Shown here: positions 1 to 14,277 of the stretch, piece after piece
Position numbering within the stretch: the stretch's first letter is position 1
How the letters are laid out: the number at the start of each line of letters is the position of its first letter
NCBI GenBank assembly: GCA_025453925.1
Contig: JALOPK010000048.1
Span: 1 to 14,277 of the forward strand
DNA: 14,277 nt
Direction: 5' to 3'
Source of the DNA: Candidatus Eiseniibacteriota bacterium
Lineage (GTDB): Bacteria; JAFGKV01
The notes under the pieces: generated by a model
What the model was told of the DNA's origin: nothing
Seen by the model: the letters and a program-made list of their open reading frames with translations, nothing else
Database searches by the model: none
Program-made: the position numbers and the translations under genes

Positions 1-1
1 G

Positions 2-61
2 CTCCGAAATCTTCCAGTCGAAGCCGTTCAGTCTGTCTTCATACGACCCGATATTGCTCAC
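2..61 (-). CDS. N-terminal fragment of a probable AMP-forming acyl-CoA (acetyl-CoA-like) ligase, cut by window edge
   Basis: Twenty codons are visible, starting with GTG at 61 and running off the left edge. The GTG is preceded by a perfect AGGAGG (minus strand, positions 73-68) at 6-nt spacing, so an independent start is likely. The residues YEDRLNGFDWKISE resemble the extreme N terminus of acetyl-CoA synthetase-like AMP ligases, where a Tyr-Glu...Phe-Asp-Trp stretch precedes the main domain. No catalytic motif lies inside the window, so the family call rests on this short match and on an acyl-carrier-related neighbour. The reading frame is continuous with the upstream phosphopantetheinyl transferase: no stop codon separates them. 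It could therefore be the C-terminal half of a fusion rather than a separate gene. Confidence 0.5.
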   Translation of the reverse strand, partial: MSNIGSYEDRLNGFDWKISE

Positions 62-439
62 TGTCTTCCTCCTTGAGGGGCTATCCCCCTCGATGATCGC
101 CCACGCCATGGCGTACCCGTGCGCGCATGCGCCCGCGCTGCGAATTCCGGCGATGCCTTCCTGAGCCGCCAGCGACTGTAGGTCTCCCGCAAGCTCAACT
201 CTGCCGCCAGCCCGGAGCTCGATGTCATGCCACCGCCAGCCGAGGGAAAGACCGCAGCCCAGAGCTTTGAGGACCGCCTCCTTGGTGGCGAGGGCCACGG
301 CGCATTGGGAAACCGGCGGAAGGTCAGGCAGGGCCGAACGCTCACTTCGGGTGAGTATCTCGGCCAGGAAACCCTCGCGGTCTTTCAGTGCGCCGAACCG
401 CTCCAGCGACACAATGTCAAACCCCACGCCCAGAATCAC
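62..439 (-). CDS. AcpS-type 4'-phosphopantetheinyl transferase (holo-ACP synthase-like)
   Basis: Enzymes of this family move the phosphopantetheine arm of CoA onto a serine of acyl or peptidyl carrier proteins in the cytoplasm. The predicted protein starts MILGVGFDIVSLERF, the AcpS N-terminal signature with the Mg-binding Asp at residue 8. It continues with FLAEILTRSER (24-34) and ALATKEAVLKALG (49-61), which holds the second conserved acidic residue (E54) and a conserved Lys (K58). About 117 residues cover the normal AcpS length. I chose GTG 439 because it places the family's usual N terminus first; there is no clear Shine-Dalgarno sequence, and an in-frame TTG at 514 would add 25 unconserved residues. 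No stop codon occurs before the GTG of the next gene at 61, in the same frame, so the product either extends into that gene or the two are translated as a fusion. It lies 82 nt after the dehydrogenase stop and is probably co-transcribed with it. A sequencing frameshift at the end is an alternative. The family call is firm; the carrier-protein partner is unknown. Confidence 0.8.
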
Positions 440-521
440 GACACGCCAGCGGCGCCCGTCATCGCTCCCGGGCTGGCGTGGCGCCCTGCGTGATCCGGCG
501 GCGTGCCGAGGCAACGCTCAG

Positions 522-1637
522 TCATACCATTCCCATGCGCCGCCGGGCGTCGGAAAGCTCGGCCGCATCAGGGAACAGAACGACCTTGCCGCACTGCCGG
601 GGGTTTCCCATCGCGATGTCAAATCCTTCGGCGAACCGGTCCAGCGGCAGAAGGTGGGTGACGATGGGGCGGATGTCCACCCTGCCGGAGGCCAGCAGAT
701 TGCGCACGCGGTACCACGTGTCGAAAATGCGACGGCCCGAGATCCCGTGAATCTGGATGCCCTTGAATACGATGCCGTTGTTGTAGTCTATGGGGACCGA
801 GGCGCTCCCCGACACGCCGAACGCGCTGAACCTTCCCCCTTTGCGGATGATCTCCAGGCCTTCCTTGATCGCCTGGGGGGCTCCCACCATGTCCAGCACG
901 ATGTCGGCGCCATAGCCGCCCGTGTGGTCTCTGACGAATTGCACCCGGTCGACCGTGGTATCCGAGATGCTCAGCGTGTGGTCTGCGCCCATACGCCGAG
1001 CGATCTCCAAGGCATACGGTGAGGCGCCGATCACGAAGATACTGGTCAGCCCCGCGGCCCGGGCGATTCCGGTGGCGAACAGCGCGGTCGGACCATCGCC
1101 GAAGATGGCGACCGTCTTGCCTGTCACGTCGCAGTCCTCGCCGAGCAGCGCGTAGCACGCGTTGCCCATGGGCTCCTGCACGGTTGCCAATTCGGGAGGG
1201 ATGGCGGGATCGTTGACCCAGCAAACCGACTCGGGAACGGCGAAGTACTCGGCGAAACATCCGTCATGGTCAACGCCGACGATCTTCATGCGCTCACCGA
1301 TGTGGCGCTGTCCCAGCATGGCCTGGAGGTCTCCCGGATGATAGATATGCGTCTCGGCCGAGATGTAGTCGCCCACGCTGATTCGGGAACACTGGGCGCC
1401 GGTCTCCACCACTTCTCCCGCGACCTCATGCCCCAGAATCTGAGGGAGCCGGTCGCGGCCGATCCGGCTCTCGGCCCACCGATTCCAGCCGAAGATATGC
1501 ACGTCAGTCCCGCACACGGAGGTGGCACGCACCCTGACGAGCACCCAGTCGGGCCGCGGAATCGGCACAGGGACCTCCCGCCATTCGGCGCCCGGTTCGG
1601 GCCGCGTCTTGACGACGGCCTTCATTGTTCGCGACAT
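522..1637 (-). CDS. Zinc-dependent medium-chain dehydrogenase, L-threonine 3-dehydrogenase-like, lacking the structural zinc site
   Basis: The 371-residue protein is collinear with L-threonine 3-dehydrogenase, which oxidises threonine to 2-amino-3-ketobutyrate. CGTDVHIF (42-49) carries the catalytic zinc Cys42 and the Thr44/His47 positions of the proton relay. GHE (69-71) gives the next zinc residues, EPMGNA matches the family's acidic zinc-proximal segment, and the C-terminal FKGIQIHGISGRRIFDTWY block is typical. Two things are odd. The lobe that normally carries four structural-zinc cysteines (residues about 98-118) has His100, Asp103, Ala106 and Gly114 in their places. The nucleotide-binding site reads GDGPTA instead of GxGPxG, and the Asp that usually ends the second strand is replaced by Gly-Ala-Ser. 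The fold and catalytic metal site look intact, so I expect an active dehydrogenase, but substrate and cofactor may have shifted. ATG 1637 is preceded by GAGGAGG at 4 nt. It lies 64 nt after the HD-GYP gene on the same strand. Confidence 0.88.
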   Translation of the reverse strand: MSRTMKAVVKTRPEPGAEWREVPVPIPRPDWVLVRVRATSVCGTDVHIFGWNRWAESRIGRDRLPQILGHEVAGEVVETGAQCSRISVGDYISAETHIYHPGDLQAMLGQRHIGERMKIVGVDHDGCFAEYFAVPESVCWVNDPAIPPELATVQEPMGNACYALLGEDCDVTGKTVAIFGDGPTALFATGIARAAGLTSIFVIGASPYALEIARRMGADHTLSISDTTVDRVQFVRDHTGGYGADIVLDMVGAPQAIKEGLEIIRKGGRFSAFGVSGSASVPIDYNNGIVFKGIQIHGISGRRIFDTWYRVRNLLASGRVDIRPIVTHLLPLDRFAEGFDIAMGNPRQCGKVVLFPDAAELSDARRRMGMV

Positions 1638-1701
1638 ACGTCCTCCTCAAGGCTATTGGCGAAATGAACGCACGTGGGCAGTGATCATGGAAGGCGCGAA
1701 T

Positions 1702-3312
1702 CTACATGCCGGCCCTCCCGCCGCCATCTGCTGACCCTCCGCCGGGGCCTCTCCGCAACACGACGGCTTCCAACGCCTGGGCAACCAGGGGAACGAACTG
1801 ACGGCCCGCCGCGGCGCGAACCTCGCTCACCGCGTTCTTCGGCCGCATGGGCAGACGGTAGCGACGGGAAGGTGAAGTCATGGCTTCATACGCATCGGCG
1901 ACCGCGACGATGGCACCATCCAGGCTGAGTTCGGTGATCCCGCGAGGGTACCCCGAGCCATCGGGCCGCTCGTGGTGCTCCCCGGCGATGCGGGCAAGCT
2001 CCGGCACGCCGATATCCGTGAGCACGGCTTCCCCCACGGCGGCGTGCTGATGGAGGCGGTCGATCTCCGCGGGCGTGAGTGGTCTCAACCGGTTCAGGAG
2101 GCTCCACGGGATCATGAGCTTTCCGATGTCGTGGAGGAGACCGCCGAACTCCACCATCTTGAGATGACGTTCATCGGCCCCCGTCCGCGGACTCAAGTGG
2201 GAGGCCAGTCTGCGGGAGAGCCCGGCGACCCGCCGGGAATGGTCGCCGCCGGTGTACTGGTCCTTGCTCTCCAGAAGATCGACGAGTTCGTCGAGCACCC
2301 GGGCACCGGAACGCTCCAGGCCGGCCATGCGGTCTCGCTCTCCCGCCAGAAGGTCGCGGAGCAAGTCGAAACAGACCTCGATCACCCGTATCTCCTGTCG
2401 CGGGCTCGTGAAGGTCAGGCTGCTCTGCAGGGCTTTGCGCGTCCAGAACAACGCAGGTTCCACCTCTCCCCGGACGGCGCAGAGCTGGGCGCGGCGGCGG
2501 AACACCTCGGGAAGGAGCCGCTCAAGCCGCAGTTCAACACACTCAGGCTCAAGGGGCAGCAAAAGGCGTTCGGCGACCTGCACATCTCCCCGCAGCAGGC
2601 ATGCCTCCGCCAGATTCCCCGTTGCGATGATCCTGGTGCGGGGTCGGAGAGGGCCCTGAAGCACGTCACGGAACGTCCTGATGGCCTGGTTGAGCATCTC
2701 GGGATCCCGCCCGGATTCCCTCGCCTGGCGCGCCAGCGACCATCCCACATTGTTCAGTATCGTGCCGCGCACCATTTCCGGGTCGTCTCCCCTGGCGGCG
2801 ACGAACGGGGCCCTGGGCACCTCCTCCAGGTGCTTCATCGCGCGCTGATACGCGGCGACCGCCTCGTCGTGACGGGCCATCTCGGTGAGAGTGTTCCCCA
2901 GATTATTGAGCACCGCGACAGTGTCGAACTGAGGATCTCCGCCGGCCAACTCCGCCAGCGCACGCTCGAAGCACGTCAGGGCGGGGACGAAGAGACCCTG
3001 ATCCGCGCTAGCCAGGCCGGCGATCTTCAAGAGTTGGGCTGCCTCGACGCGTCGGCCTCCCGACAAGGCCATGTCCGCCAAGCGAAGCGCCACGATTTCG
3101 GCGGCCGCGGGATCCCCGACTCGTCGCAAATCTTTGACCAGGGAAGTCAAGGTCGCACTGTCGGCGATCACACCATTCTCCGCCGCTGAAACCTCCTCCA
3201 CCAGGTGGCCGATCAGATCGGACGCCTCGCGGAACGCTTCCGGGGCCAGAGTCGGAAGTGATGGCAGCGACGCGATGTGCTGGGAGAGGCCGGGCAGGCG
3301 CGTCAGACTCAT
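1702..3312 (-). CDS. TPR-repeat protein with C-terminal HD-GYP cyclic-di-GMP phosphodiesterase domain
   Basis: The protein has 536 residues. Residues about 85-330 are helical and TPR-like, with clear units such as LNNLGNTLTEMARHDEAVAAY and a second LNNVGWSLARQ repeat. Residues about 345-520 form an HD-GYP domain: His358 in GDHSRRV, the HDIGK motif (394-398), HHERPDGSGYP (446-456) with the full GYP signature, and VADAYEAMTS with Asp473. HD-GYP proteins hydrolyse the second messenger c-di-GMP, some to GMP; all metal-binding motifs I look for are present, so activity is expected. There is no receiver, PAS or membrane segment, so input probably comes through protein binding to the TPR array. ATG 3312 has no good Shine-Dalgarno sequence nearby; the closest, GAGGAGG, is about 24 nt upstream and out of reach. 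The gene diverges from nrdJ across about 300 bp and could lead an operon with the dehydrogenase and AcpS genes. Confidence 0.93.
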   Translation of the reverse strand: MSLTRLPGLSQHIASLPSLPTLAPEAFREASDLIGHLVEEVSAAENGVIADSATLTSLVKDLRRVGDPAAAEIVALRLADMALSGGRRVEAAQLLKIAGLASADQGLFVPALTCFERALAELAGGDPQFDTVAVLNNLGNTLTEMARHDEAVAAYQRAMKHLEEVPRAPFVAARGDDPEMVRGTILNNVGWSLARQARESGRDPEMLNQAIRTFRDVLQGPLRPRTRIIATGNLAEACLLRGDVQVAERLLLPLEPECVELRLERLLPEVFRRRAQLCAVRGEVEPALFWTRKALQSSLTFTSPRQEIRVIEVCFDLLRDLLAGERDRMAGLERSGARVLDELVDLLESKDQYTGGDHSRRVAGLSRRLASHLSPRTGADERHLKMVEFGGLLHDIGKLMIPWSLLNRLRPLTPAEIDRLHQHAAVGEAVLTDIGVPELARIAGEHHERPDGSGYPRGITELSLDGAIVAVADAYEAMTSPSRRYRLPMRPKNAVSEVRAAAGRQFVPLVAQALEAVVLRRGPGGGSADGGGRAGM

Positions 3313-3465
3313 TGTTGGACTCTCGGCGTCACACGGCCTCCTCAGGGCGGTATCGGCTGGTTCTCTTCGATCGCGAAGACCATCACTGATAGGTCGGAAA
3401 ACCCAAGGTGTTCCCCCCGGCCCCCGCCGTCAAGATGCGAGTGATGCGGGGTGGGTGGAGCCCAC

Positions 3466-3494
3466 TTGACAGCCCAACGTATTGGGGTCATGTT
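3466..3494 (+). promoter_or_regulatory. Probable sigma-70-type promoter of nrdJ
   Basis: A perfect TTGACA (3466-3471) is followed at 17-nt spacing by CATGTT (3489-3494), which matches three of six -10 consensus positions. The -35 is convincing and the -10 is weak. The two NrdR-like palindromes lie across the spacer and just after the -10, where a repressor would block polymerase. About 120 nt of leader would precede the nrdJ ATG. Confidence 0.5.
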
Positions 3495-3518
3495 GCGGCC
3501 CACAACAACATGTTGTGT
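3472..3518 (+). promoter_or_regulatory. Tandem NrdR-box-like operator upstream of nrdJ
   Basis: Two 16-bp imperfect palindromes are seen: GCCCAACGTATTGGGG (3472-3487) and CAACAACATGTTGTGT (3503-3518), the latter with a perfect 12-bp core. Their centres (3479.5 and 3510.5) are exactly 31 bp apart, about three helical turns. NrdR, the ATP-cone repressor of ribonucleotide reductase genes, is known to bind pairs of 16-bp boxes spaced about 31-32 bp. The half-sites CCCCAATA and ACACAACA resemble its ACACWATA half-site. Position next to a promoter and in front of a ribonucleotide reductase gene supports the call. The regulator gene is not in the window. Confidence 0.75.
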
Positions 3519-3569
3519 TTCTGTCGTAGGAGTGAAAGCAAAGCAGGACATGGGAAAACGGCCCAAATA

Positions 3570-3598
3570 GTGACGTACCGGGCCGGCCGGGACGTCAC
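3570..3598 (+). promoter_or_regulatory. Stable GC-rich hairpin in the nrdJ 5' leader
   Basis: GTGACGT (3570-3576) pairs perfectly with ACGTCAC (3592-3598). After one mismatch an inner CCGG/CCGG stem closes a 5-nt loop. The G-rich stretch that probably serves as Shine-Dalgarno sequence (about 3599-3606) begins at the foot of the stem, and ATG follows at 3617. No U-tract follows, so it is not an ordinary terminator. It may stabilise the mRNA or tune ribosome access; this is inference. Confidence 0.45.
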
Positions 3599-3616
3599 GG
3601 GGGGAGACGGCGGAGC

Positions 3617-6358
3617 ATGAAGCAGGCAGTCAGCCAAGAGGGCGCAACGGTGGATGAACGGCAACTCATTTTCTGGCCCCAGAAGGGCTCATCGTGGCGC
3701 CCGCCGCGAATCGGATCCGTAGACTCCAAGGGAATGGTCTTCCGCCGTCATTTCACCCGGGTGGGGGTCCGTCCCTTCGATGCCGTGACATGGGAGACCC
3801 GTTCGGCGACGATCAACGCGGCTGACGGCACCACGGTATTCGCCCAGGAGAAGGTGGAGGTCCCTTCTTTCTGGTCTGCCACGGCGACGAATGTGGTGGC
3901 GTCGAAGTACTTCAAGGGATCTCCCGACATCGGGGAGCGCGAGCACAGCGTGAAGCAGTTGGTCTCCCGCATCGTGGACATGATCACCTCGTGGGGTATC
4001 AAAGACGGATACTTCACGGGCGACGACCAGGCGCGTATCTACGCGGATGAACTGACGCATCTCCTCGTGCACCAGCACGCGTCCTTCAATAGTCCGGTGT
4101 GGTTCAATGTCGGCATCGAGGAGCGTCCTCAGTGCTCGGCCTGTTTTATCAACTCAGTCGAGGACACCATGGATTCCATCCTCGACCTGGCCAAGATCGA
4201 GGGCACCCTCTTCAAGCACGGCAGCGGCACCGGTTCCAACCTCTCCTCGCTCCGCTCGAGCAAGGAGCGTCTGTCGTCGGGAGGGAAGGCGTCGGGTCCC
4301 GTCTCCTTCATGAAGGGCTACGACGCCTTCGCGGGGGTGATCAAATCCGGCGGCAAGACACGACGTGCGGCCAAGATGGTCATCCTCGATGCATCCCACC
4401 CCGACATTGTCGAGTTCGTGGAATGCAAGGCGCGAGAGGAGCGCAAGGCCAAGGCCTTGGTTGCCGCAGGCTACGACGGTGGTCTTAACGGCGAGGCGTA
4501 CGCTTCGGTGTTCTTTCAGAACTCGAACAACTCCGTCCGCGTCACCGACGACTTCATGGAGCGAGCGCTCCGGGGCGGCGAATGGGGCCTTCGTGCGGTC
4601 ACCAATGGCGACGTGATCGAGCGTTGCAGCGCCAGGCAGTTGCTCCGCCTTATGGCCGAATGCGCCCACGAATGCGGAGATCCGGGCATCCAGTTCGACT
4701 CGACGATCAACAAATGGCATACTTGTTCGGACACCACGCAGATCCGGGCCAGCAATCCCTGCAGCGAGTACATGTTCGTCGACAACTCCGCCTGCAACCT
4801 CGCCTCGCTGAACCTGATGAGGTTCCTCGACGACGAGGGTGTGTTCGACGCCGAGTCATTCCGCTACGCGGTGGACATCATGATCACGGCCCAGGACATC
4901 ATCGTGGACAACTCCCAGTATCCGACATCCCAGATCGGCGTGAACAGCCACCGCTATCGGCCCCTGGGCCTCGGGTATGCCAATCTGGGATCCCTGCTCA
5001 TGACCCTCGGCATCGCCTACGACAGCGACCGTGGGAGATCGATGGCGGCCGCCATCACGGCCTTGATGACGGGAGAGGCCTACCGGTTCTCCGGCGAACT
5101 CGCCTCCCTGCTCGGCTCATTCGAAGCGTATCCCGCGAACAGGTCATCGGTGCTGGGGGTGCTGGGCATGCACCGTGCCAAGGTCGAAGAGATCAACAGC
5201 GATCTGGTGCCGTCCCTTCTGCTCGACACGGTGCGCAAGGTCTGGCAGATGGCGGAGGAAGGCGCCCGCATCAACGGGGTCAGGAACGCCCAGGTGACGG
5301 TGCTGGCGCCGACGGGGACGATCTCGTTCATGATGGACTGCGACACCACGGGGATCGAGCCCGACATCGCGTTGGTCAAGTTCAAGAAGATGGTCGATGG
5401 CGGCACGATCAGGATCGTGAATCGGTCTCTTGGGCGAGCGCTGACCACGATGGGTTACGCTCCCCACGAGACCGACAAGATTCTCGACCACATCGAGCGT
5501 ACGGGCACCATCGAGGGGGCGCCCGGTGTCGCGGAGGATCATCTCCCGGTATTCGACTGCGCACTGGCCCCCGAGCAGGGGGTGCGGTGCATCGGGCCTC
5601 TGGGACATCTCAACATGATGGCGGCCGTGCAACCGTTCGTCTCGGGCGCGATTTCGAAGACCGTCAATGTCGGGCACGAGACCACGGTCGACGAGATCTA
5701 CGACATCTTCGTGGAGGCCTGGAAGCGGGGGCTCAAGGCCGTGTGCATCTACCGCGACGGATGCAAGAGCGATCAGCCGCTCTCCATCAGGAAGGAGAAC
5801 AAGCCATCGGCCAAGAAGCCCATGCGCCGGCGCCTCCCTCCCGAGCGGCAGGCAGTGACCCACAAGTTCTCCATCGGCGGCCACGAAGGGTACATCACCG
5901 TGGGGAAGTACGAAGACGGGACGCCCGGCGAGATCTTCGTTCGCATGGCCAAGGAGGGGTCGGTGGTCTCGGGCCTCATGGATTCTTTCGCCACCGCGAC
6001 GTCCATCATGCTCCAGTACGGCGTACCCCTGAATGTCCTGATCGACAAGTTCAGCCACCTCAGATTCGAACCGTCGGGAGCAACCACCAATGCCCAGATT
6101 CCAACGGCGAAGTCGGTGCTGGACTATATCTTCCGCTGGCTGGCCCTGAAGTTTTTCGCGCCGGAAGATGCGGAGACGCTGGTCAACCAACCACAACTCG
6201 AGCTGGCGCTGCTCCCGGTGGCCCAGTCAGACCCCACCGGAGAAGGCGCCAGGAACCAGGTGGGGAGCCCCCCATGCCCGTCGTGCGGAAGCATCACGGT
6301 CACCAGCGGCAAGTGCTACGTCTGCCCGAACTGCGGCACAACCACGGGGTGTTCATAG
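3617..6358 (+). CDS. nrdJ: Class II (adenosylcobalamin-dependent) ribonucleoside-diphosphate reductase
   Basis: This enzyme makes deoxyribonucleotides from ribonucleotides using a radical generated from vitamin B12, so it needs neither oxygen nor a small subunit. The 913-residue protein has NSPVWFNVG, then CSACF with Cys173/Cys176, FKHGSGTGSNLSSLR, the active-site loop NPCSE (380-384, radical Cys382), NSACNL with Cys393, and APTGTISFMMDCDTTGIEPD. Cys176 and Cys393 are the likely redox pair reducing the substrate. The C-terminal part has the FSIGGHEGYITVGKYEDG block typical of long NrdJ proteins. It ends in a cysteine-rich tail with Cys887, 890, 900, 903, 906 and 912, which suits a zinc ribbon plus a dithiol that re-reduces the active site. 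ATG 3617 gives an N terminus about 35 residues longer than the conserved core; an in-frame GTG at 3650 is an alternative start. No ATP-cone is obvious at the N terminus. Probable control is by NrdR through the upstream box pair. The full length is present with no frameshift. Confidence 0.97.
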   Translation: MKQAVSQEGATVDERQLIFWPQKGSSWRPPRIGSVDSKGMVFRRHFTRVGVRPFDAVTWETRSATINAADGTTVFAQEKVEVPSFWSATATNVVASKYFKGSPDIGEREHSVKQLVSRIVDMITSWGIKDGYFTGDDQARIYADELTHLLVHQHASFNSPVWFNVGIEERPQCSACFINSVEDTMDSILDLAKIEGTLFKHGSGTGSNLSSLRSSKERLSSGGKASGPVSFMKGYDAFAGVIKSGGKTRRAAKMVILDASHPDIVEFVECKAREERKAKALVAAGYDGGLNGEAYASVFFQNSNNSVRVTDDFMERALRGGEWGLRAVTNGDVIERCSARQLLRLMAECAHECGDPGIQFDSTINKWHTCSDTTQIRASNPCSEYMFVDNSACNLASLNLMRFLDDEGVFDAESFRYAVDIMITAQDIIVDNSQYPTSQIGVNSHRYRPLGLGYANLGSLLMTLGIAYDSDRGRSMAAAITALMTGEAYRFSGELASLLGSFEAYPANRSSVLGVLGMHRAKVEEINSDLVPSLLLDTVRKVWQMAEEGARINGVRNAQVTVLAPTGTISFMMDCDTTGIEPDIALVKFKKMVDGGTIRIVNRSLGRALTTMGYAPHETDKILDHIERTGTIEGAPGVAEDHLPVFDCALAPEQGVRCIGPLGHLNMMAAVQPFVSGAISKTVNVGHETTVDEIYDIFVEAWKRGLKAVCIYRDGCKSDQPLSIRKENKPSAKKPMRRRLPPERQAVTHKFSIGGHEGYITVGKYEDGTPGEIFVRMAKEGSVVSGLMDSFATATSIMLQYGVPLNVLIDKFSHLRFEPSGATTNAQIPTAKSVLDYIFRWLALKFFAPEDAETLVNQPQLELALLPVAQSDPTGEGARNQVGSPPCPSCGSITVTSGKCYVCPNCGTTTGCS

Positions 6359-6507
6359 TACGCTCGCCGGCCGTCAGGTTTCGCTGAGCGGTGCAGTGCC
6401 TCTGTGCGGGGCCTTGCGCGAGCCTTATCGGCGACGATAGTTGACCACGACTTGCGCGCAGGCCTCTCTTGCCGTGCTGCCACGATCGAAGTCCCACGGG
6501 AGCCGTG

Positions 6508-6978
6508 ATGGCCAACCGGATTCAGCAGAACATGGTCGCATTCGTCCTGAACGGGCGCCCGTTTTCCGTGGCTCCCGACCCGGATGAAACCCTGCTGGAG
6601 ACCCTCCGTCAGCGGTGCGGGTGCGCGGATGTCAAGAAGGGGTGCGACGAGGGCGCCTGCGGCGCCTGTACGGTGGCCATTGATGACGTCGCCGTTCCAA
6701 GCTGTCTCGTGCTGACCGTCGCATGCGCCGGCAGCCGAATCGTGACGTCGGCAGGTCTCGCCACCGACCCCCTGGCACGCCGCATCGGCGCCGCCCTGGC
6801 CGAGGCCGGCGCCGTGCAGTGCGGCTTCTGTACGGCCGGCGTGCTGATCACCGCATGGAGCATGTTCCGACGGATTCCCTCCCCCGATCGTGACACCATC
6901 AGTCGCGAACTGACCGGGAATCTGTGCCGGTGCGGAGGCTACGACCTCATGGTGGAGGCCCTCGCGGGGCTCGGATGA
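6508..6978 (+). CDS. 2Fe-2S subunit of a xanthine-dehydrogenase-family molybdenum hydroxylase (HcrC/CoxS-like)
   Basis: The 156-residue protein carries two [2Fe-2S] clusters that pass electrons between the molybdenum centre and FAD. The plant-ferredoxin-type cluster is bound by Cys46, Cys51, Cys54 and Cys66 (GCDEGACGACT...SC). The second is bound by Cys105, Cys108, Cys140 and Cys142 (QCGFC...LCRC). Length and spacing are standard. I chose ATG 6508 because CGGGAG lies 5 nt upstream; GTG 6505 is immediately adjacent and also possible. An in-frame ATG 39 nt earlier would only add unconserved residues. The 149 nt after nrdJ hold no clear terminator or strong promoter. It is the first gene of a translationally coupled set: its stop overlaps the next ATG by 4 bp. 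Confidence 0.95.
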   Translation: MANRIQQNMVAFVLNGRPFSVAPDPDETLLETLRQRCGCADVKKGCDEGACGACTVAIDDVAVPSCLVLTVACAGSRIVTSAGLATDPLARRIGAALAEAGAVQCGFCTAGVLITAWSMFRRIPSPDRDTISRELTGNLCRCGGYDLMVEALAGLG

Positions 6979-9224
6979 GTTCGCCGCCTCCCCCGTGGCC
7001 GTGGACTGATCCCTACGTGGCGGATCTGTCGCTACCGGGCATGGTGTTCGCTGCAATGGCCCGTTCCACCCACGCTCACGCCGCGCTGCGCTCGATCGAT
7101 CTTGCGCCGGCGCTCGCCACGCCGGGCGTGCTTGCCGCGGTGGACGGCCGGGCCTTCCCTCTGATGGGAGGCGTCATTCACTCATCCCGGGATGAGCCGG
7201 TCCTCGCCGTTGACAGGGTCCGCTATGTCGGTGAACCCTTGGCGGCCGTCGCGGCGGTCTCTCCCGAGGCGGCAAAGGCGGGGGCGGCCAGCGTGGCGGC
7301 CGCGTTCGATCCTCTGCCGCCGGTGCTCACCATGAGGTCTGTCGGACTTGATGTTCCTCTCCACGAGGAGCACCCCGACAATGTGCTCCGGGATGTGGCG
7401 TTGGAGTTCGGCCCGGTCGATGAGAGTTTCGCCAGTGCCCGGGCTGTGTTCGCCGGCACCTACCACTACGGGGCGAGCACGCATGCGGCGCTGGAGCCCC
7501 ACGGCGTCGTGGCATGGTGGCGGCCTGAGGGTCGTCTCTGGGTGTGGACGTCCACGCAGTGTCCCCACCTGGTGCAACACGGGGTCGCGCGGCTGATGGG
7601 GCTCGAACCCTCTGCGGTGCGGGTCATCACCCCACGGGTCGGAGGCGGGTTCGGCGGGAAGAGTGAGGTATTCAGTCACGAGGTCGTGGCAGCCCGGCTC
7701 TCCATGCTGTTGGGTCGCCCCGTGCGCTTGATCCTCTCCCGGGAGGAGGTCTTCTATACCCATCGAGGACGCCACGAAGCCCTCATCGACCTGCGGCTCG
7801 CGGTCGGTGCGCACGATGAGATTCTCGGCCTCGATGCGGACATCATCCTCAACGGAGGCGCCTACGCGGGCATGGGCCTGGTGACCACGTACTACGCGGG
7901 CCAATTCCTGGGGATTCCCTATCGAGTCGGAGCGTTCAGATTTCGCAGCCGGCGCGTGTTCACCAACGCTCCTCCGGCCGGCCCCAAGCGGGGGCATGGA
8001 TCGGTGCAGATCAGGTTCGCCGTAGAGCGGCTGTTGGATCGGGCCGCCCTGAGTCTCGGGCTCAATCCTCTGGCCTGGCGCATGTCGCTGGCGCTGAAGT
8101 CGGACGAGACCACCCTGAACGGCCTGAAGATTGGATCCTCCGGTTTCACGCGATGCCTGGAGGAGATCGCCCGCATGACGGCTCCTCTACAATGCGGCGA
8201 GGGCGAGGCAATCGGGGTCGCGGGATCCGCCTACATCTCCGGAGCGGCTTTCCCGATCATCCCCAACCGCCTGCCCCATTCGCAGGCGATTCTGCGGGCG
8301 GATCGCTCGGGGCTCTTCGTGCTCACGGTGGGCGTCGCGGAGATCGGGCAGGGCGCGCTGGAGACCCTCCGAACGCTTGTTGCACAGACCCTGGGCCAGC
8401 CCACCGATCGCGTGCTCGCGGTTGCGGGCGACACCGACGCCTGCCCGGTGGACCTTGGATCGTATTCCAGCCGGGTCACCCTCATGGCGGGCAACGCTGT
8501 GATTGCCGCCGCCGCCGCGGTAAGGAGGCAGCTTCTCGAAGCCGCCGGAGATCGGCTCGCAGTCGCACCGGAGAGCCTGGATCTGGTGCCCAACCGGGTG
8601 GTGGTGCGCGAGGATCCCGGCGGCAAAGGCATGAGCCTGACCCGGGCCATCGCCCGGGCGGAGGAGCGCATTGGCACCGTGATCGGCAGCGGCAGCTATG
8701 CCCCGGCGGTGGAACCAGGGCCCTACCCTGGAGGCGCCTTGGGGCCTTCACCCGCCTTTAGTTTCACGGCGGCGGCAGCGAAGGTCCGCTTCGACCCGGA
8801 TCTGGGCGCCGTGGAGGTGACGGACATCTGGATTGCCCATGACTGCGGCCGAGCAGTCAATCTCGCCCGAGTCAACGCCCAGCTTCACGGCTGCGCCCTC
8901 ATGGGGTTGGGTGAGGCCCTGATGGAGCAGGCGGGGCTCCATCGAGGAATCATGGATCCCGTGGGCATGCTGGACTACGGTGTGCCCACCGCACGGGACC
9001 TTCCCCGCATTCATGCCGTGGTAGTCAGTGCCGCAGATCCGGCAGGGCCCTTGGGTGCCAAGGAGGCGGGCGAGGGTCCCCTGCTGCCCGTTGTGCCGGC
9101 CATCGCCAATGCCGTCGCGCGGGCTGCGGGGCTGGACATCTGCGCGATTCCGCTGAGTTCCGAAGACCTCGTGCGGCCGTCAGCGCGCGAAACACCGCTT
9201 TCCGGGGAGGCGGCACTCCGTTGA
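6975..9224 (+). CDS. Molybdopterin-binding large subunit of a 4-hydroxybenzoyl-CoA-reductase-like hydroxylase
   Basis: This is the catalytic subunit of the xanthine dehydrogenase superfamily, 749 residues. Motifs in order: YVGEPLAAV near residue 85; STHAALEPHGVVAWW; GGGFGGK (223-229), a Mo-cofactor loop; a Gly-Pro-Lys-Arg-Gly-His-Gly loop (336-342), the position of the active-site loop that in CO dehydrogenase reads AYRCSFR; IGQG (457-460); and GAKEAGEGP ending in Glu700, the likely catalytic base. The loop lacks the selenium-copper cysteine of CO dehydrogenase, so that function is excluded. GAKEAGEG and the C-terminal IPLSSEDL resemble the 4-hydroxybenzoyl-CoA reductase alpha subunit, and the associated FAD subunit agrees with this. 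The true substrate is not readable; another aromatic or N-heterocyclic compound is possible. ATG 6975 overlaps the previous stop as ATGA; a GTG at 6924 would only add a segment read out of frame in the upstream gene. Confidence 0.92.
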   Translation: MSSPPPPWPWTDPYVADLSLPGMVFAAMARSTHAHAALRSIDLAPALATPGVLAAVDGRAFPLMGGVIHSSRDEPVLAVDRVRYVGEPLAAVAAVSPEAAKAGAASVAAAFDPLPPVLTMRSVGLDVPLHEEHPDNVLRDVALEFGPVDESFASARAVFAGTYHYGASTHAALEPHGVVAWWRPEGRLWVWTSTQCPHLVQHGVARLMGLEPSAVRVITPRVGGGFGGKSEVFSHEVVAARLSMLLGRPVRLILSREEVFYTHRGRHEALIDLRLAVGAHDEILGLDADIILNGGAYAGMGLVTTYYAGQFLGIPYRVGAFRFRSRRVFTNAPPAGPKRGHGSVQIRFAVERLLDRAALSLGLNPLAWRMSLALKSDETTLNGLKIGSSGFTRCLEEIARMTAPLQCGEGEAIGVAGSAYISGAAFPIIPNRLPHSQAILRADRSGLFVLTVGVAEIGQGALETLRTLVAQTLGQPTDRVLAVAGDTDACPVDLGSYSSRVTLMAGNAVIAAAAAVRRQLLEAAGDRLAVAPESLDLVPNRVVVREDPGGKGMSLTRAIARAEERIGTVIGSGSYAPAVEPGPYPGGALGPSPAFSFTAAAAKVRFDPDLGAVEVTDIWIAHDCGRAVNLARVNAQLHGCALMGLGEALMEQAGLHRGIMDPVGMLDYGVPTARDLPRIHAVVVSAADPAGPLGAKEAGEGPLLPVVPAIANAVARAAGLDICAIPLSSEDLVRPSARETPLSGEAALR

Positions 9225-10126
9225 GCATCTGCGACGTCAGGACCGCCCGCTCCCTTGAGGAAGCCCTCGTCCTGACGGCTGAGGGGTGGCTTCCGCTGGC
9301 GGGAGGCACCGATCTGGTTCCCCGCATGAAACACGGCCTCCTGACCGGAGCCAGAGTGGTGATCGTCCGCGGCCTCAAAGAACTGCACGGCGTGCACACG
9401 ACCGACACGGGTCTCGTGGTGGGCGCCTGCACCACCATCGCGGATCTCTGCCGGTCGTCAGCCTGTCCGCCGTGGCTGGGAGGGGCGTGCGCGCAGATTG
9501 CCGGTCCCCGGGTGAGGGAACTGGCCACCGTCGGCGGCGCCCTGCTTCAGGAGCGGCGCTGCCGGTACTACAACCGGCCAGTCCTTTGGCGCACGGCCTC
9601 CGGCGCCTGCCTCCGCACCGGAGGCGACCGGTGCCTGGCCGGTGGCGACCGATGCTGCGCCACGCAGCGTTCCCTGCTCAGCACGGTTCTGGTGGCGGTC
9701 TCCGCCTCGGTGGTGATCTCCCGTGGCGCGGAGGAACGAAGCGTGCTGCTCGAGGATTTGTACGGGCCGGAAGCCGGCGCGTGGCGCGCGGGCGGCATCA
9801 TTCGCAGCGTTTCCATCTCTCGGATGGCGGAGGCTGAGGGGAAGGTCGCCGTGGAATGGATTCGCCGCCGGGCAAGCATCGACTATCACGATCTGGTGGT
9901 GGCGGGGGCGTCGCGGGCAGGCAGCCCCCACGAGGTTTCGGTCACGGTCGGCGCGGCGGTCCCCTATCCCCGGCGGATCGTGCTTCCCTCCCCCGCTCCC
10001 GGGGGGGCCATCCGGTCGGCGGCAACTCTGATCCCCTCGGCGCAGTCGGGCAGGCTCAGCCCGGCATACCTGCGCCATGCCGCCGTGGTGCTGGCAGGGC
10101 GCGTGATTGCGAGGGTCGCCCCATGA
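9221..10126 (+). CDS. FAD-binding medium subunit with a [4Fe-4S]-type cysteine insert (HcrB-like)
   Basis: This 301-residue subunit binds FAD and exchanges electrons with the iron-sulfur subunit. The FAD pyrophosphate loop LAGGTDLVP lies at 26-34, and the second FAD motif ATVGGALLQ at 102-110. It is followed by RRCRYYNRPVLW, which begins an insert with Cys114, Cys130, Cys138 and Cys145/146. Ordinary CoxM/XdhB subunits lack this insert. The beta subunit of 4-hydroxybenzoyl-CoA reductase has it, binds an extra [4Fe-4S] cluster there, and shares the RCxYYxxxxxW start. The start is TTG 9221, overlapping the previous stop as TTGA, with GGGGAGG 10 nt upstream. The protein is somewhat shorter than HcrB, mainly at the C terminus. 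The call of FAD subunit is firm; the cluster is inferred from the cysteines. Confidence 0.93.
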   Translation: MSICDVRTARSLEEALVLTAEGWLPLAGGTDLVPRMKHGLLTGARVVIVRGLKELHGVHTTDTGLVVGACTTIADLCRSSACPPWLGGACAQIAGPRVRELATVGGALLQERRCRYYNRPVLWRTASGACLRTGGDRCLAGGDRCCATQRSLLSTVLVAVSASVVISRGAEERSVLLEDLYGPEAGAWRAGGIIRSVSISRMAEAEGKVAVEWIRRRASIDYHDLVVAGASRAGSPHEVSVTVGAAVPYPRRIVLPSPAPGGAIRSAATLIPSAQSGRLSPAYLRHAAVVLAGRVIARVAP

Positions 10127-10707
10127 GGATCTCCGCCGTGATCCTGGCGGCCGGCGCATCCTCCCGAATGGGAAGCCCCAAGGCGCTGATGATCCGGCAT
10201 GACCTCACGTTGCTCGAGGAGACCATCGCGCCGTTCGCGGCGGTGGGCGCCCGGCTGATGGTGGTAACGGGGTTCCACGCGAAGCGTGTGGAGCCCGCGT
10301 CGCGGGTGCTGGGAGCAACGGTGATCCGCAATGTCGCGCCCCATCGGGGCATGGCGAGTTCCGTGCGCACGGGACTGAGAAACGCGGGCGAGGATGACCT
10401 GGTGTTTGTCCATCCGGTTGACTGTCCTGGCGTACGGCCGGAGACTCTCCGGATGCTCGTGGGGGCCCTGCAGGCATTCGACGGCGCGCATGCCGCCACA
10501 CCTCTCTTTCGAGGACGCGGCGGCCATCCGGTGATCCTCGACCGGACCGCCCGGGCCGTGATGTTGGGGACCAAGCACCACTTCACCCTTCGAGACCTTC
10601 TCGCCCGACTCGGGCCCGCGGTAATCCGCGTGGAGACCGGAGACCCTGCCGTGCTTCGGGATATCGACACCCGCGAGGATGCGGCGGCCTGGCTCGCGGA
10701 ATCCTGA
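10123..10707 (+). CDS. mocA: MocA-like molybdenum cofactor cytidylyltransferase
   Basis: This is a 194-residue nucleotidyltransferase of the COG2068 type. LAAGASSRMGSPKAL (8-22) is the nucleotide-binding signature. VHPVDCPGV supplies the metal-binding Asp, and GRGGHPVIL follows the family pattern. MocA adds CMP to molybdopterin, giving the Mo-molybdopterin cytosine dinucleotide used by xanthine-dehydrogenase-family enzymes. Its place directly behind the three hydroxylase subunits, overlapping by ATGA, makes it the likely cofactor-maturation enzyme of that complex. MobA (GMP transfer) is less likely because MobA serves the DMSO-reductase family and starts with LAGG. A longer in-frame upstream start exists but would read across the FAD subunit gene and lacks conserved sequence. 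I see no XdhC-type chaperone gene nearby. Confidence 0.87.
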   Translation: MRISAVILAAGASSRMGSPKALMIRHDLTLLEETIAPFAAVGARLMVVTGFHAKRVEPASRVLGATVIRNVAPHRGMASSVRTGLRNAGEDDLVFVHPVDCPGVRPETLRMLVGALQAFDGAHAATPLFRGRGGHPVILDRTARAVMLGTKHHFTLRDLLARLGPAVIRVETGDPAVLRDIDTREDAAAWLAES

Positions 10708-10719
10708 TTCTCTCGTCCC

Positions 10720-12156
10720 GTGCACGTCCTTTCCGCAACCGCCCTGGCGCGGTCCTATGACCTGCAGTGTCCCCGGCATATCGTGTGGATGACGGATGAG
10801 ATCGAACGACCGAGAGTCCGCTGGGAGGAAACCCCGGCGGGGAGAGTTCTTGCCGAGCTGGGCCAGGAACACGAGCGTCAGGTGGTGGCGCGGCTGGTCC
10901 CCGCTGAACAGCTAGCGACGCCGCAGTATCCGCCCGGCGATCTTGACGCGGGAGCCGCGGCGACCGCCGAACTCGTACGGGCCCGCGCCCCGTTCATCTC
11001 CCAGGGGGTCCTGAAAGGCGAGGTGGCGCCTGGCGTGGCGGTACGGGGGCTCGCCGACCTTCTGGAGCGACGCGATGACGTGTATCGGGTCATCGAGATC
11101 AAGGCCTCGCGGCGGCTCAAGACCTCTCAGGTGCTCCAGGCCGCCGCCTATACCGAACTCCTGAGCCGGCTGGCCGGCGTCGCCGATCCCGTCATGGTGG
11201 ACGGGATGTACCGGCAGTACGTGCCGCCGTACGACGCGGCCCGCGGCATTCTCCTCGAACTGGTGACCCTGTCGATTCCTCGCTGGCTCCGCGCCGGCAG
11301 CGATGCCTTCCACCGCACGCCGCGCTGCGCGGGGTGTCCTTTCGACCCGCTCTGCCGCGAGGACGCCCGTAGTCGTCTCCACCTCAGCGCGGTGCCCGGC
11401 TGCACGCCCGCGCTGGCGACACGCCTGGCGGCCATTGGCGTGCATGACATCCCGGGGTTGCTCACTCTCGGTCAGGTGGATCTTCATCAGGTGGCCATCG
11501 ACGGTCACCTGCTCCAGCGGCTCAAGGGCCAGGCCCTGGCATGCGTTGATGGGAGGATCGTGCCGACAGGCGATGCGGCGGCCCCGCCGGCGGCCCCGGT
11601 GGAGTTGTTCCTCGAGGTCGAACCCGATCCGACGGCCCGGCTCCCCTGCCGTCTCGGGCTGCTCAAACGGGACAGAACAAAGGGCCTCTCGGCGTACCGG
11701 AGCCTGGTCATGCCCACCGATCCTGCCGAGGCTGCCCGGAAGGTTCGAAGCTTTCTCGAGCTGGCGGTTCACCAGGCGACCAAGGCCGCAAGGGACGGTG
11801 TCGCTTGGACCTTCCTGTACTACGGATCCGGCACGATCGAGGCCTGGGCGGATCTGGTGACCTGGATGGGATGGGGCGACGAACTGCTGGAGGAGATGCT
11901 GCTGCATGCCACCGACATCCTGGCGGTAGTTCGAAGGGGTTGGCATGTGCCGGTGGAGGGGTACACCCTGGCTCAAGTACTGGGAGCGACGGGCTGCGCG
12001 CCCGTGCCCGGCGACACGCCCGGCTTCGCCATGCACGTGTCCTGGCGGCGGAATCGAGACGAAGCCCTGATACGCGCGTTGCACGAGCACGGCGAGGCCA
12101 CGGCCAGAGCGCTGATGGAACTGTGGGACTGGGTGGAGAGTGCCCGTGCGGGATGA
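10720..12156 (+). CDS. RecB-family Fe-S nuclease, TM0106-like, with HhH and decayed RNase-H-like domain
   Basis: The 478-residue protein has PD-(D/E)XK nuclease motifs of the RecB family: GxxxH with His51, Asp113 in GLADLL, EIK at 126-128, and QAAAY (140-144). Four cysteines surround this domain: Cys17 in LQCPRHIVW near the N terminus and Cys203, Cys206 and Cys212 in CAGCPFDPLC. This is the arrangement that binds a [4Fe-4S] cluster in Cas4, AddB and Dna2. Residues about 221-250 look like a helix-hairpin-helix DNA-binding element (VPGCTPALATRLAAIGV). Residues about 290-460 resemble the YprB-type RNase-H-like domain (LFLEVEPDP, then VEGYTLAQVLGATG), but the usual first catalytic DxE reads EVE. 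It probably cleaves single-stranded or flapped DNA together with the helicase encoded next. GTG 10720 lies 12 nt after mocA, with no good Shine-Dalgarno sequence. It is not a CRISPR Cas4: no cas gene or array is present. Confidence 0.87.
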   Translation: MHVLSATALARSYDLQCPRHIVWMTDEIERPRVRWEETPAGRVLAELGQEHERQVVARLVPAEQLATPQYPPGDLDAGAAATAELVRARAPFISQGVLKGEVAPGVAVRGLADLLERRDDVYRVIEIKASRRLKTSQVLQAAAYTELLSRLAGVADPVMVDGMYRQYVPPYDAARGILLELVTLSIPRWLRAGSDAFHRTPRCAGCPFDPLCREDARSRLHLSAVPGCTPALATRLAAIGVHDIPGLLTLGQVDLHQVAIDGHLLQRLKGQALACVDGRIVPTGDAAAPPAAPVELFLEVEPDPTARLPCRLGLLKRDRTKGLSAYRSLVMPTDPAEAARKVRSFLELAVHQATKAARDGVAWTFLYYGSGTIEAWADLVTWMGWGDELLEEMLLHATDILAVVRRGWHVPVEGYTLAQVLGATGCAPVPGDTPGFAMHVSWRRNRDEALIRALHEHGEATARALMELWDWVESARAG

Positions 12157-13930
12157 CCGACCCTTGACCTCCGACGACATCGAGGAACGGCTCGTTCGTT
12201 TTCTGCTCACCGAGCATCGAACCTCCCGACGATCCACGTTGCTGCTCCATGAGCTGCCCGTAGAAGAGCGGGTGGCGAGGGGCATGTGCCTGACTGACCT
12301 GGTCCCGTTGGATACCCACGGCTCGACCCTGCGGTTCAGGTTCCCCCCTCAGCCGTGCAAACTGCGCGACGGCGACTGGATGGTGCTCGGCCGTGGCAGG
12401 CCGGTCGGCCCGGAGATCGGTGCCGGCGTTCAGGTGGTGGTGGAGCGAGTCGACCCGCTCTCGCGAACACTGACTCTGGAGGCACTTGATCGCGGTGAGC
12501 ATGAGCTGGTGGACGGGGTGTGGACACTGGACTATGTCTCCTCCGACACGACGACCCCACGGCTCGCCGCCGCCGTGCGCGATGCGTTCCGAAGCCGTCC
12601 GGCGGTTGGAGCTCTTCTCCTGGGGCAGACGGAGGGAGGGGAAGCCCCGCGGGGAACTCTTCCCGGAGGGCTGGATCCGTCGCAAGCGCGGGCCGCGCGG
12701 GAGGCGTTGTCCGGCAGGCTGACGCTCATCCATGGACCGCCGGGCACCGGCAAGACCAAGGTCGTCGCCTCCGTGGTGGACATCCTTGCGGCCCGGGGTA
12801 GAGCCGTCTTGGTGACCGCGTTCACCCACCGCGCCATCGACAATGTTCTCCACGCGCTGATCGCGGCCAACCCCGAGGCAGGCGTGCTGAAGTTGGGCCG
12901 CCGATCTCCGGATCTGAACCCGGCCATTCCGTGCGCCCCCCCCAACCGGCTGGGGTTCTCCCGGCGTGTGTCTGTGGTCGGCGCCACCGTGTACGCGCTC
13001 GCCCGCCTCCCCCGAGAAAGGACCTTCGACGCCGTAGTCATAGACGAAGCGGGCCAGCTTCCGCTGGCCCATGCCGCCGTGGCACTGGCCAGAAGTAGAG
13101 AAGCGTGCATCCTCGCGGGAGATCATCGCCAGCTTCCGCCGGTGCTGAGCGCCACGCATACCGATGCCGCCGCGTCGTCGTCGGTCTTCGCCCGTCTCGT
13201 CTCCCTGTACCCCGGCCGGACCTTCTTGCTGGATACCAGCTACCGGCTGCCGCCGGGACTCTGCAGCTTCCCTTCGGGGGCATTCTACGAGGGCATGCTC
13301 ACCAGCCACCATGCCACCGACCCTGGTCTTGGTCCCCTTCCTCCCGCGCTCCATCATCCCGAACTGCAGCCACTGTGGGACGTGGCCGGTCCGCTGCGGG
13401 CGGTATGGGTAGACCACCGGGGGTATGGCGGGTTCAGCCCGCCCGAGGCAGAAGCGGTGGCCCGGCTCGTCACGGCGTTGGTGCGGGATCGAGGCATCCT
13501 TCCGGAAGAGATCGCCGTGGTGGCGCCTCACCGCGCGCAGGTACGGGAGATCACCGACAGGCTATGGCGGCGGCTCGGTCCGGACACCGCTGCCTCAATC
13601 GTGGTGGATACGGTGGAGCGCATGCAAGGACAGGAGCGGGACGTGATCGTGCTCTCGCTCACCGTCTCGGATCCATGGTTCATGGCCGACGAGATTGATT
13701 TCATCCTCAGTCCCAACCGTCTCAACGTGTCTATCACTCGGGCGCGCAGACTCCTGGTGGTCGTCGGCAGCCGTGAATTCTTCAGGATCTACCCCTCTTC
13801 ACCCGAGCATCTGGAGGCCGCCTGGCTGTTCAGAAAGCTGGAGGAAGTCTTGATCCCCGTGGGCGTCGACCTGACCGCCGAGGCCCACGGCTGGGTGGGG
13901 TTGCCGCCGCCGAAAGAGCCTGGCGGATGA
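12146..13930 (+). CDS. UPF1/DNA2-like superfamily 1B helicase
   Basis: This 594-residue helicase shows the full SF1 motif set. Walker A GPPGTGKT is at 197-204, with AFTHRAIDNVL as motif Ia. VVIDEAGQ contains the Walker B pair Asp300/Glu301, and GDHRQLPP is at 325-332. Next come DTSYRLPPGLCSFPSGAFYEG, the UPF1-family motif, then QGQE (494-497) and NVSITRAR (527-534) with the arginine finger. Residues about 40-120 form a beta-rich region like the 1B barrel of UPF1 and Dna2 helicases, which move 5' to 3' on single strands. The gene overlaps the nuclease gene, so the two are probably made together and act as one nuclease-helicase. I prefer GTG 12146 because GGAGA lies 6 nt upstream; GTG 12140, two codons earlier, is also in frame. 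Confidence 0.92.
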   Translation: MRDDRPLTSDDIEERLVRFLLTEHRTSRRSTLLLHELPVEERVARGMCLTDLVPLDTHGSTLRFRFPPQPCKLRDGDWMVLGRGRPVGPEIGAGVQVVVERVDPLSRTLTLEALDRGEHELVDGVWTLDYVSSDTTTPRLAAAVRDAFRSRPAVGALLLGQTEGGEAPRGTLPGGLDPSQARAAREALSGRLTLIHGPPGTGKTKVVASVVDILAARGRAVLVTAFTHRAIDNVLHALIAANPEAGVLKLGRRSPDLNPAIPCAPPNRLGFSRRVSVVGATVYALARLPRERTFDAVVIDEAGQLPLAHAAVALARSREACILAGDHRQLPPVLSATHTDAAASSSVFARLVSLYPGRTFLLDTSYRLPPGLCSFPSGAFYEGMLTSHHATDPGLGPLPPALHHPELQPLWDVAGPLRAVWVDHRGYGGFSPPEAEAVARLVTALVRDRGILPEEIAVVAPHRAQVREITDRLWRRLGPDTAASIVVDTVERMQGQERDVIVLSLTVSDPWFMADEIDFILSPNRLNVSITRARRLLVVVGSREFFRIYPSSPEHLEAAWLFRKLEEVLIPVGVDLTAEAHGWVGLPPPKEPGG

Positions 13931-13942
13931 GTCATCGCTGCT

Positions 13943-13970
13943 TTGCGAGGAGGCCTGAGCGAACTATCAT
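13943..13970 (+). promoter_or_regulatory. Promoter-like element reading rightwards
   Basis: TTGCGA (13943-13948, four of six -35 matches) and TATCAT (13965-13970, five of six -10 matches) are separated by 16 nt. The stretch after it is markedly A+T-rich compared with the rest of the window. The predicted start of transcription falls inside the tandem palindrome that follows. No gene is visible downstream within the window. Confidence 0.4.
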
Positions 13971-14005
13971 ATAGGACATGTCCAATATAGGACACGTCCC
14001 ATATG
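13971..14005. repeat. Tandem palindrome, operator-like (two 16-bp units)
   Basis: Two direct repeats of a unit reading TATAGGACAYGTCC follow each other with a 16-bp period. Each contains a palindrome: GGACATGTCC (13974-13983) is perfect and GGACACGTCC (13990-13999) has a single central mismatch. They sit directly after a promoter-like -10. Two palindromes about 1.5 helical turns apart next to a promoter look like a binding site for a dimeric repressor or activator. I do not recognise the regulator. Confidence 0.55.
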
Positions 14006-14210
14006 TATGACCGAAGTGCATGCGGCGACGCCATGAGGCCCCCTCCTCGTGGCCCTCGTTGTGTGTACCAAACACCTCGATCGCACTCCCCGATCTCCGG
14101 CTGAAATCGAGCAGTGGCGATTGCCGGCATCTCGAAGGGGCCGATTCGGACCGGCCGTTGACGGTCATCCCGAACGGTCCACTTTCCATCCTCGTGGCAC
14201 CCGCCTCCCC

Positions 14211-14234
14211 GTCATTCCCGCGGAGGCGGGCATC
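14211..14234. repeat. Short REP-like intergenic palindrome
   Basis: The stem CCCGC (14217-14221) and GCGGG (14226-14230) encloses the loop GGAG and is flanked by GTCATT and CATCC. The overall form GTCATTCCCGC...GCGGGxATCC is the pattern of widely dispersed intergenic palindromes found in many GC-rich bacteria. Only one copy is seen in this window, so the repeat nature is inferred from resemblance. Confidence 0.4.
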
Positions 14235-14277
14235 CGGCAGGGGGTTGGAGCAGCGAAGCGTGACCTGACGGATTCGG

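Follow-up and report, generated by a model that had tools for sequence, protein, structure and literature searches.

Adjacent genes for an Fe–S nuclease and a UPF1/IGHMBP2-type helicase as a candidate two-subunit DNA2-like enzyme in Candidatus Eiseniibacteriota

Introduction

Helicase–nucleases of the DNA2 kind carry both activities in a single chain, and a stretch of DNA from a Candidatus Eiseniibacteriota bacterium (contig JALOPK010000048.1, positions 1 to 14,277, hereafter the window) raises the question of whether such an enzyme can also be assembled from two separately encoded proteins. The window contains two overlapping genes, here named NUC and HEL, which a first-pass annotation had described as an iron–sulfur (Fe–S) RecB nuclease and a superfamily 1B (SF1B) helicase encoded in the order in which DNA2 joins them. 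This description holds, and both genes are real open reading frames (ORFs), located in different frames, with coordinates unchanged from that annotation and with intact motifs. Moreover, it is considered here, with moderate confidence, that the pair forms a two-subunit helicase–nuclease resembling DNA2 and the bacterial enzyme Bad, which would trim 5'-tailed DNA intermediates, is kept as neighbouring genes, and has an origin separate from that of the common fused enzyme. The features concerned, all on the forward strand, are the following:

10720..12156, forward: NUC gene, 478 amino acids (aa), GTG start (TIGR03491, PF12705, AlphaFold2 model, substitution-rate ratio)
10720..11379, forward: Fe–S PD-(D/E)XK nuclease domain, aa 1-220 (residues C17, E52, D113, E126, K128, Q140, C203, C206, C212)
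11380..11589, forward: putative helix–hairpin–helix (HhH)-like helical linker, aa 221-290 (helices 230-277 in the model)
11590..12153, forward: RNase-H/DnaQ-like domain, aa 291-478, without DEDDy catalytic residues (fold match, residue table, substitution-rate ratio)
12140..12156, forward: NUC/HEL overlap, 17 nucleotides (nt), or 11 nt with the HEL start at 12146 (sequence)
12140..13930, forward: HEL gene, 596 aa, UPF1/IGHMBP2-type SF1B helicase, start GTG 12140 or 12146 (PF13086/PF13087, PDB matches, AlphaFold2 model, motifs)

Domain Architecture of the Two Proteins

In profile searches, NUC matches PDDEXK_1 (PF12705, E 1e-6) and TIGR03491, the 'TM0106 RecB-like nuclease' family (E 7e-27), with a score of 94.4 bits that lies just below the curated cut-off of 97.45, which its nearest relatives in genomes G001 and G002 exceed (101.0 and 124.3 bits, respectively). 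The four cluster cysteines are all present, in the pattern C17 ... C203-x2-C206-x5-C212, and the nuclease site is intact (E52, D113, E126, K128, and Q140). In the AlphaFold2 model (mean predicted local distance difference test (pLDDT) 85.7; predicted template modelling score (pTM) 0.84), residues ~292-478 adopt an RNase-H/DnaQ-type fold, with Z up to 14.7 over 169 residues (root mean square deviation (rmsd) 2.8) to polymerase proofreading domains. PD-(D/E)XK folds were absent among the matches listed for the whole NUC model, and Foldseek returned no match to NUC at E <= 0.001; because the fold lists show only the RNase-H-like part, the nuclease domain is assigned from its sequence and motifs. 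On these grounds, NUC is confirmed as a predicted Fe–S RecB-type nuclease of the TM0106 family with a C-terminal RNase-H-like pseudo-exonuclease domain, showing the PD-(D/E)XK site, the four cluster cysteines, and the RNase-H-like C-terminal domain that characterize its members, but lacking the intact DEDDy motif that is usual, though not strictly defining, in them.

The HhH and RNase-H-like additions that had been noticed on the nuclease fared differently. The RNase-H-like fold is supported by the model, but its catalytic residues are gone, a point absent from the first-pass annotation, as D299 is replaced by E and the Y-x3-D motif has disappeared, while the HhH character of residues 220-290 is suggested by the helical linker and by membership in the TM0106 family, no separate HhH match having been obtained.

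HEL matches AAA_11 and AAA_12 (PF13086/PF13087, E 9e-27/8e-33), and its best sequence matches in the PDB are to SMUBP2/IGHMBP2 (SMUBP2 E 7e-33), in addition to UPF1 and DNA2. All helicase motifs, I to VI, were found and, together with both domains and a UPF1/IGHMBP2 fold, they place the protein among the UPF1-like SF1B helicases. Its AlphaFold2 model (pLDDT 89, pTM 0.88) is closest in fold to IGHMBP2 (Z 33.9 over 536 residues, rmsd 3.1), followed by UPF1 (Z 29.7) and DNA2 (Z 26.1). Thus, the likeness to DNA2 that had been proposed stands as regards the UPF1 family of the helicase, but not as regards closeness to DNA2 itself. Of the two possible starts of HEL, GTG 12146 has a better-spaced GGAGAG upstream than GTG 12140.

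The ratio of nonsynonymous to synonymous substitution rates (dN/dS), measured against the congener G001, is 0.19 for NUC and 0.145 for HEL and, therefore, both are selected as proteins. The degenerate RNase-H-like domain, at 0.215, is likewise under purifying selection, and it is because of this that a scaffold function is proposed for it below.

Conservation and Linkage

The survey of paired versus fused proteins that the first-pass annotation had suggested was run over 386 genomes across Bacteria, with helicase scoring limited to three candidates per genome. TM0106 nucleases occur in three arrangements: fused with a helicase (about 1120-1250 aa), which is common; solo, with no helicase nearby; and as an adjacent pair. 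The adjacent pair is present in all three sampled genomes of the window's own candidate phylum (the window genome, G001, and G002) and also, in the same order, in G059 and G120, amounting to three candidate phyla overall. With three candidates scored per genome, the five best helicase matches of the survey are exactly these five pairs, and the next two in the ranking (G366 and G100) are joined in one chain to a nuclease of this type. G257, a second genome of the phylum of G120, contains just the initial portion of a NUC, where a contig ends. All five split pairs retain the nuclease-domain residues, apart from conservative exchanges of D and E at positions 113 and 126 (G002 has E for D at 113). 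Unlinked relatives, which had been expected if the two genes do not belong together, do not appear within the window's group, although solo genes are common in other TM0106 subfamilies.

The overlap itself is less constant than the adjacency. The 17- or 11-nt overlap of the window is matched by 4-nt ATGA overlaps in G059 and G120, whereas spacers of about 220 nt and 450 nt separate the genes in G001 and G002, so overlap was rejected as the conserved feature. In G002, NUC and HEL are still adjacent although the gap is filled with repeat-like DNA. This spacer (locus L012, 1715-2166) contains a repeated motif (ATTGCTTCGTCG ... CTCGCARTGACA), which is apparently an interspersed repeat.

Other arrangements were observed in the survey. 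In the planctomycete Mariniblastus (L084, 2102-9049), a nuclease–helicase pair with a 4-nt overlap has lost the Fe–S cysteines and kept DEDDy; it branches apart from the window's group and is probably an independent case. It is flanked by WYL-domain and DnaQ-like exonuclease genes, a context confined to this locus. At L058 (G111:C15), the frame of an actinobacterial fused-type nuclease turns low-complexity past the nuclease domain, suggesting a frameshift, and at L200 (G119:C125), a single 1576-aa chain (ORF 2467-7197) unites an SF2 DEAD-box helicase, a UPF1-type SF1B helicase, and a Cas4-like Fe–S nuclease region, whose cysteine pattern (C...CxxCx5C) was recognised by eye.

Loss of the Exonuclease Site

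The family alignment shows intact DEDDy residues (D-x-E and Y-x3-D) in each of the 26 solo nucleases that could be scored, as well as in most fused ones. These residues are lost in seven of the seven members of the window's group, namely the window protein, the nucleases of the four other split pairs, and the fused proteins of G100 and G366, in all of which the Fe–S and PD-(D/E)XK residues are intact. Besides the window NUC, 11 helicase-linked TM0106 members also lack the DEDDy motif. Conversely, PD-(D/E)XK is kept in 50/50 helicase-linked nucleases and lost in six of 25 solo ones. Fisher tests, which ignore ancestry, give p values of 0.006 for the DEDDy pattern and 0.0009 for the PD-(D/E)XK pattern; nevertheless, the tree offers only two to three independent comparisons and, hence, the relation between the active sites is a pattern rather than a proven rule. 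The solo TM0106 nucleases at L065, L066, L015, L057, L070, and L073 keep the four cysteines and DEDDy and have lost the PD-(D/E)XK residues, as if the other active site were used.

Comparison with Known Helicase–Nucleases

Among the closest known enzymes is Bad of Geobacillus stearothermophilus (WP_053413574; Wilkinson et al. 2020), a fused bacterial DNA2-like helicase–nuclease that acts as a 5'-3' translocase and single-stranded DNA endonuclease with a preference for 5' overhangs; its unwinding is masked by its own nuclease, its function is unknown, and its gene adjoins a methyltransferase gene (PMC7430649). Going by that description, Bad resembles the pair in having an Fe–S 'iron-staple' RecB-type nuclease ahead of an SF1B helicase, but it is a single polypeptide of 1245 aa, which also contains a central domain of unknown relation, whereas the pair is made of two genes and bears HhH-like and dead RNase-H-like parts on its nuclease. 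Eukaryotic DNA2 shares the module order and the combination of an Fe–S nuclease with a UPF1-family helicase; however, it is also a single chain, it is devoid of an RNase-H-like domain, and its helicase is not the nearest fold to HEL. Being two ORFs, the pair differs from both in the single polypeptide that characterizes them. AddAB is likewise a two-gene helicase–nuclease with an Fe–S RecB-type nuclease in one subunit, but the helicases of AddAB and RecBCD are of the UvrD type (SF1A), while HEL is an AAA_11/AAA_12 SF1B protein.

Within the TM0106 family, the mainstream fused proteins (TIGR03491 plus AAA_11/12, about 1140 aa) resemble the pair in that an SF1B helicase follows a homologous nuclease laid out in the same three domains; however, both parts form separate clades, the helicase belongs to another subfamily, and DEDDy is usually intact. 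Nearer to the pair is the fused protein of G100 and G366 (1243 aa; loci L017 and L199), which shares the side of the helicase tree, the nuclease type, and the lost exonuclease site, and differs in being a single chain. Wilkinson et al. mention a second class of fused DNA2-like enzymes in Mycobacteria and Rhodococcus (PMC7430649), which probably corresponds to the mainstream fused TM0106 proteins, represented in the tree by L146 and L156.

The interpretation given in the first-pass annotation is partly borne out. The fused form is common, and earlier work has described fused 'bacterial DNA2-like' proteins (PMC7430649), whereas no description of the two-gene form was found in the literature searches made. 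Searches on TIGR03491 or 'bifunctional RecB family nuclease' returned nothing, and those on TM0106 returned corrosion papers only. Accordingly, the functional kind is known from Bad and DNA2, and it is the two-gene form, together with the putative dead scaffold domain, that was not found described.

Proposed Function and Alternatives

NUC and HEL most likely act as subunits of a heteromeric helicase–nuclease akin to Bad and eukaryotic DNA2. HEL would translocate 5'-3' along a single-stranded tail, a polarity predicted from its family, and the Fe–S PD-(D/E)XK domain of NUC would cut the strand tracked by HEL close to single-strand/double-strand junctions, so that 5' flaps or 5'-tailed repair or replication intermediates would be trimmed. 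In NUC, the HhH-like and the dead RNase-H-like domain could persist as a scaffold for docking or for binding DNA. The pair would have arisen apart from the common fused TM0106–helicase protein and then have been kept adjacent, often with translational coupling. A further proposal, more tentative and rather doubtful at present, is that these pairs constitute a distinct two-subunit class spread over several candidate phyla, in which a TM0106 Fe–S nuclease was independently recruited to a UPF1/IGHMBP2-type helicase and gave up its exonuclease site, the dead domain becoming a docking or DNA-binding scaffold.

Several observations weigh against the trimming enzyme proposed above. The overlap is absent from the two nearest relatives, and IGHMBP2/UPF1-type helicases use RNA as well as DNA. 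The active-site pattern depends on few independent events, as the nuclease tree shows just three changes of linkage, which is too few for a pairwise sign test. Moreover, since AddB also occurs in the window's own genus, and an AddB–AddA-like pair in G001, resection seems to leave no obvious vacancy there. An AddB-like gene is found at a contig end in G000. AddB–AddA-like genes are also present in G120, separate from the NUC–HEL pair, and in G002 (98% complete) no AddA-like match was obtained apart from a UvrD-type helicase.

NUC and HEL might instead be biochemically independent enzymes that share an operon or pathway without forming a complex. Solo TM0106 nucleases with no helicase neighbour are common, Chloroflexi and Massilia have solo helicases that fall on the same side of the tree as HEL, and the spacers of G001 and G002 are also in keeping with this explanation. 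It is nonetheless judged unlikely in view of the same-order adjacency in three candidate phyla, the fused version in G100 and G366, the independent overlapping pair in Mariniblastus, and the loss of the exonuclease site throughout the linked group.

Equally unlikely is a defence or restriction module, in which the motor would unwind or translocate foreign DNA and the nuclease would cut it, as suggested for Bad beside its methyltransferase. In favour of such a role, the Bad genes of Geobacillus have a Type III-like methyltransferase as a neighbour (PMC7430649), other, related Cas4-like/helicase fusions were located in defence contexts by a phylogenomic study of the Cas4 family (PMC5704561), and WYL and DnaQ-like genes flank the pair of Mariniblastus. 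HEL also matches PADLOC helicases of defence systems, although these matches arise because the SF1B core is common to such helicases. However, the link to defence islands that the first-pass annotation had raised found no sign around the pair of the window, which, as in G001, comes after RNR and a molybdo-hydroxylase cluster, while in G002 the pair is at another site, also among non-defence neighbours. No methyltransferase or CRISPR gene was recognised beside the pair, nor any methyltransferase in the window or in loci L011 and L012. Its presence in all three sampled genomes of the phylum is not patchy, and no phage, plasmid, or viral relatives were found; with zero matches, a prophage, plasmid, or viral origin was rejected. 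A role in housekeeping DNA repair seems more likely than one in defence.

Two genes upstream in the window were also noticed. A MobA-like nucleotidyltransferase gene (10120-10720) ends 12 nt upstream of NUC and, therefore, NUC and HEL may share a transcript with the molybdo-hydroxylase genes in this genus. The preceding gene (9221-10126) codes for a molybdo-hydroxylase FAD-binding subunit, whose cysteine-rich insert (CRYYNRP...CLRTGG..CLAGG..CC) presumably resembles the extra Fe–S cluster of the beta subunit of 4-hydroxybenzoyl-CoA reductase.

Somewhat less probable than a defence module is a pair that processes RNA or R-loops, with HEL acting on RNA, like IGHMBP2, UPF1, or Sen1, and NUC degrading the displaced strand. 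The ranking of IGHMBP2 and UPF1 above DNA2 among the folds of HEL agrees with this explanation; however, substrate does not follow from fold rank, and the Fe–S PD-(D/E)XK nucleases characterised so far (Cas4, AddB, DNA2, and Bad) cut DNA.

Origin of the Pair

In the helicase tree, the mainstream fused proteins stand on one side (48 rows, support 100), whereas the split helicases group with those of G100 and G366, solo helicases from Chloroflexi and Massilia, and Dna2-like proteins from haloarchaea and Ktedonobacteria. The nuclease tree likewise separates the two forms, with the mainstream fused proteins in a clade (100/99) that excludes the split ones. With a reduced helicase set, the approximately unbiased (AU) test disfavours a single clade of all TM0106-linked helicases (p 0.027), a group named post hoc, after the tree had been seen, while one common origin for the five split pairs is not rejected (AU p 0.464 for the nuclease and 0.45 for the helicase). 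In addition, a mainstream fused protein (C85) and a split pair (C478) coexist in G059. Although the domain order is identical and fused forms are widespread, a simple fission of the common fused enzyme is very improbable as the source of the pair, because both trees separate the two forms and G059 holds both.

Significance

If NUC and HEL are true subunits of a heteromer, the two activities could be separately purified, mutated, and mixed, which is impossible with the single-chain DNA2 and with Bad, where the nuclease masks the helicase, and the coupling between nuclease and motor would become directly testable. Moreover, the active-site pattern, in which DEDDy is lost only in helicase-linked members of the sample and PD-(D/E)XK only in solo ones, provides a handle on the widespread and barely studied TM0106 family.

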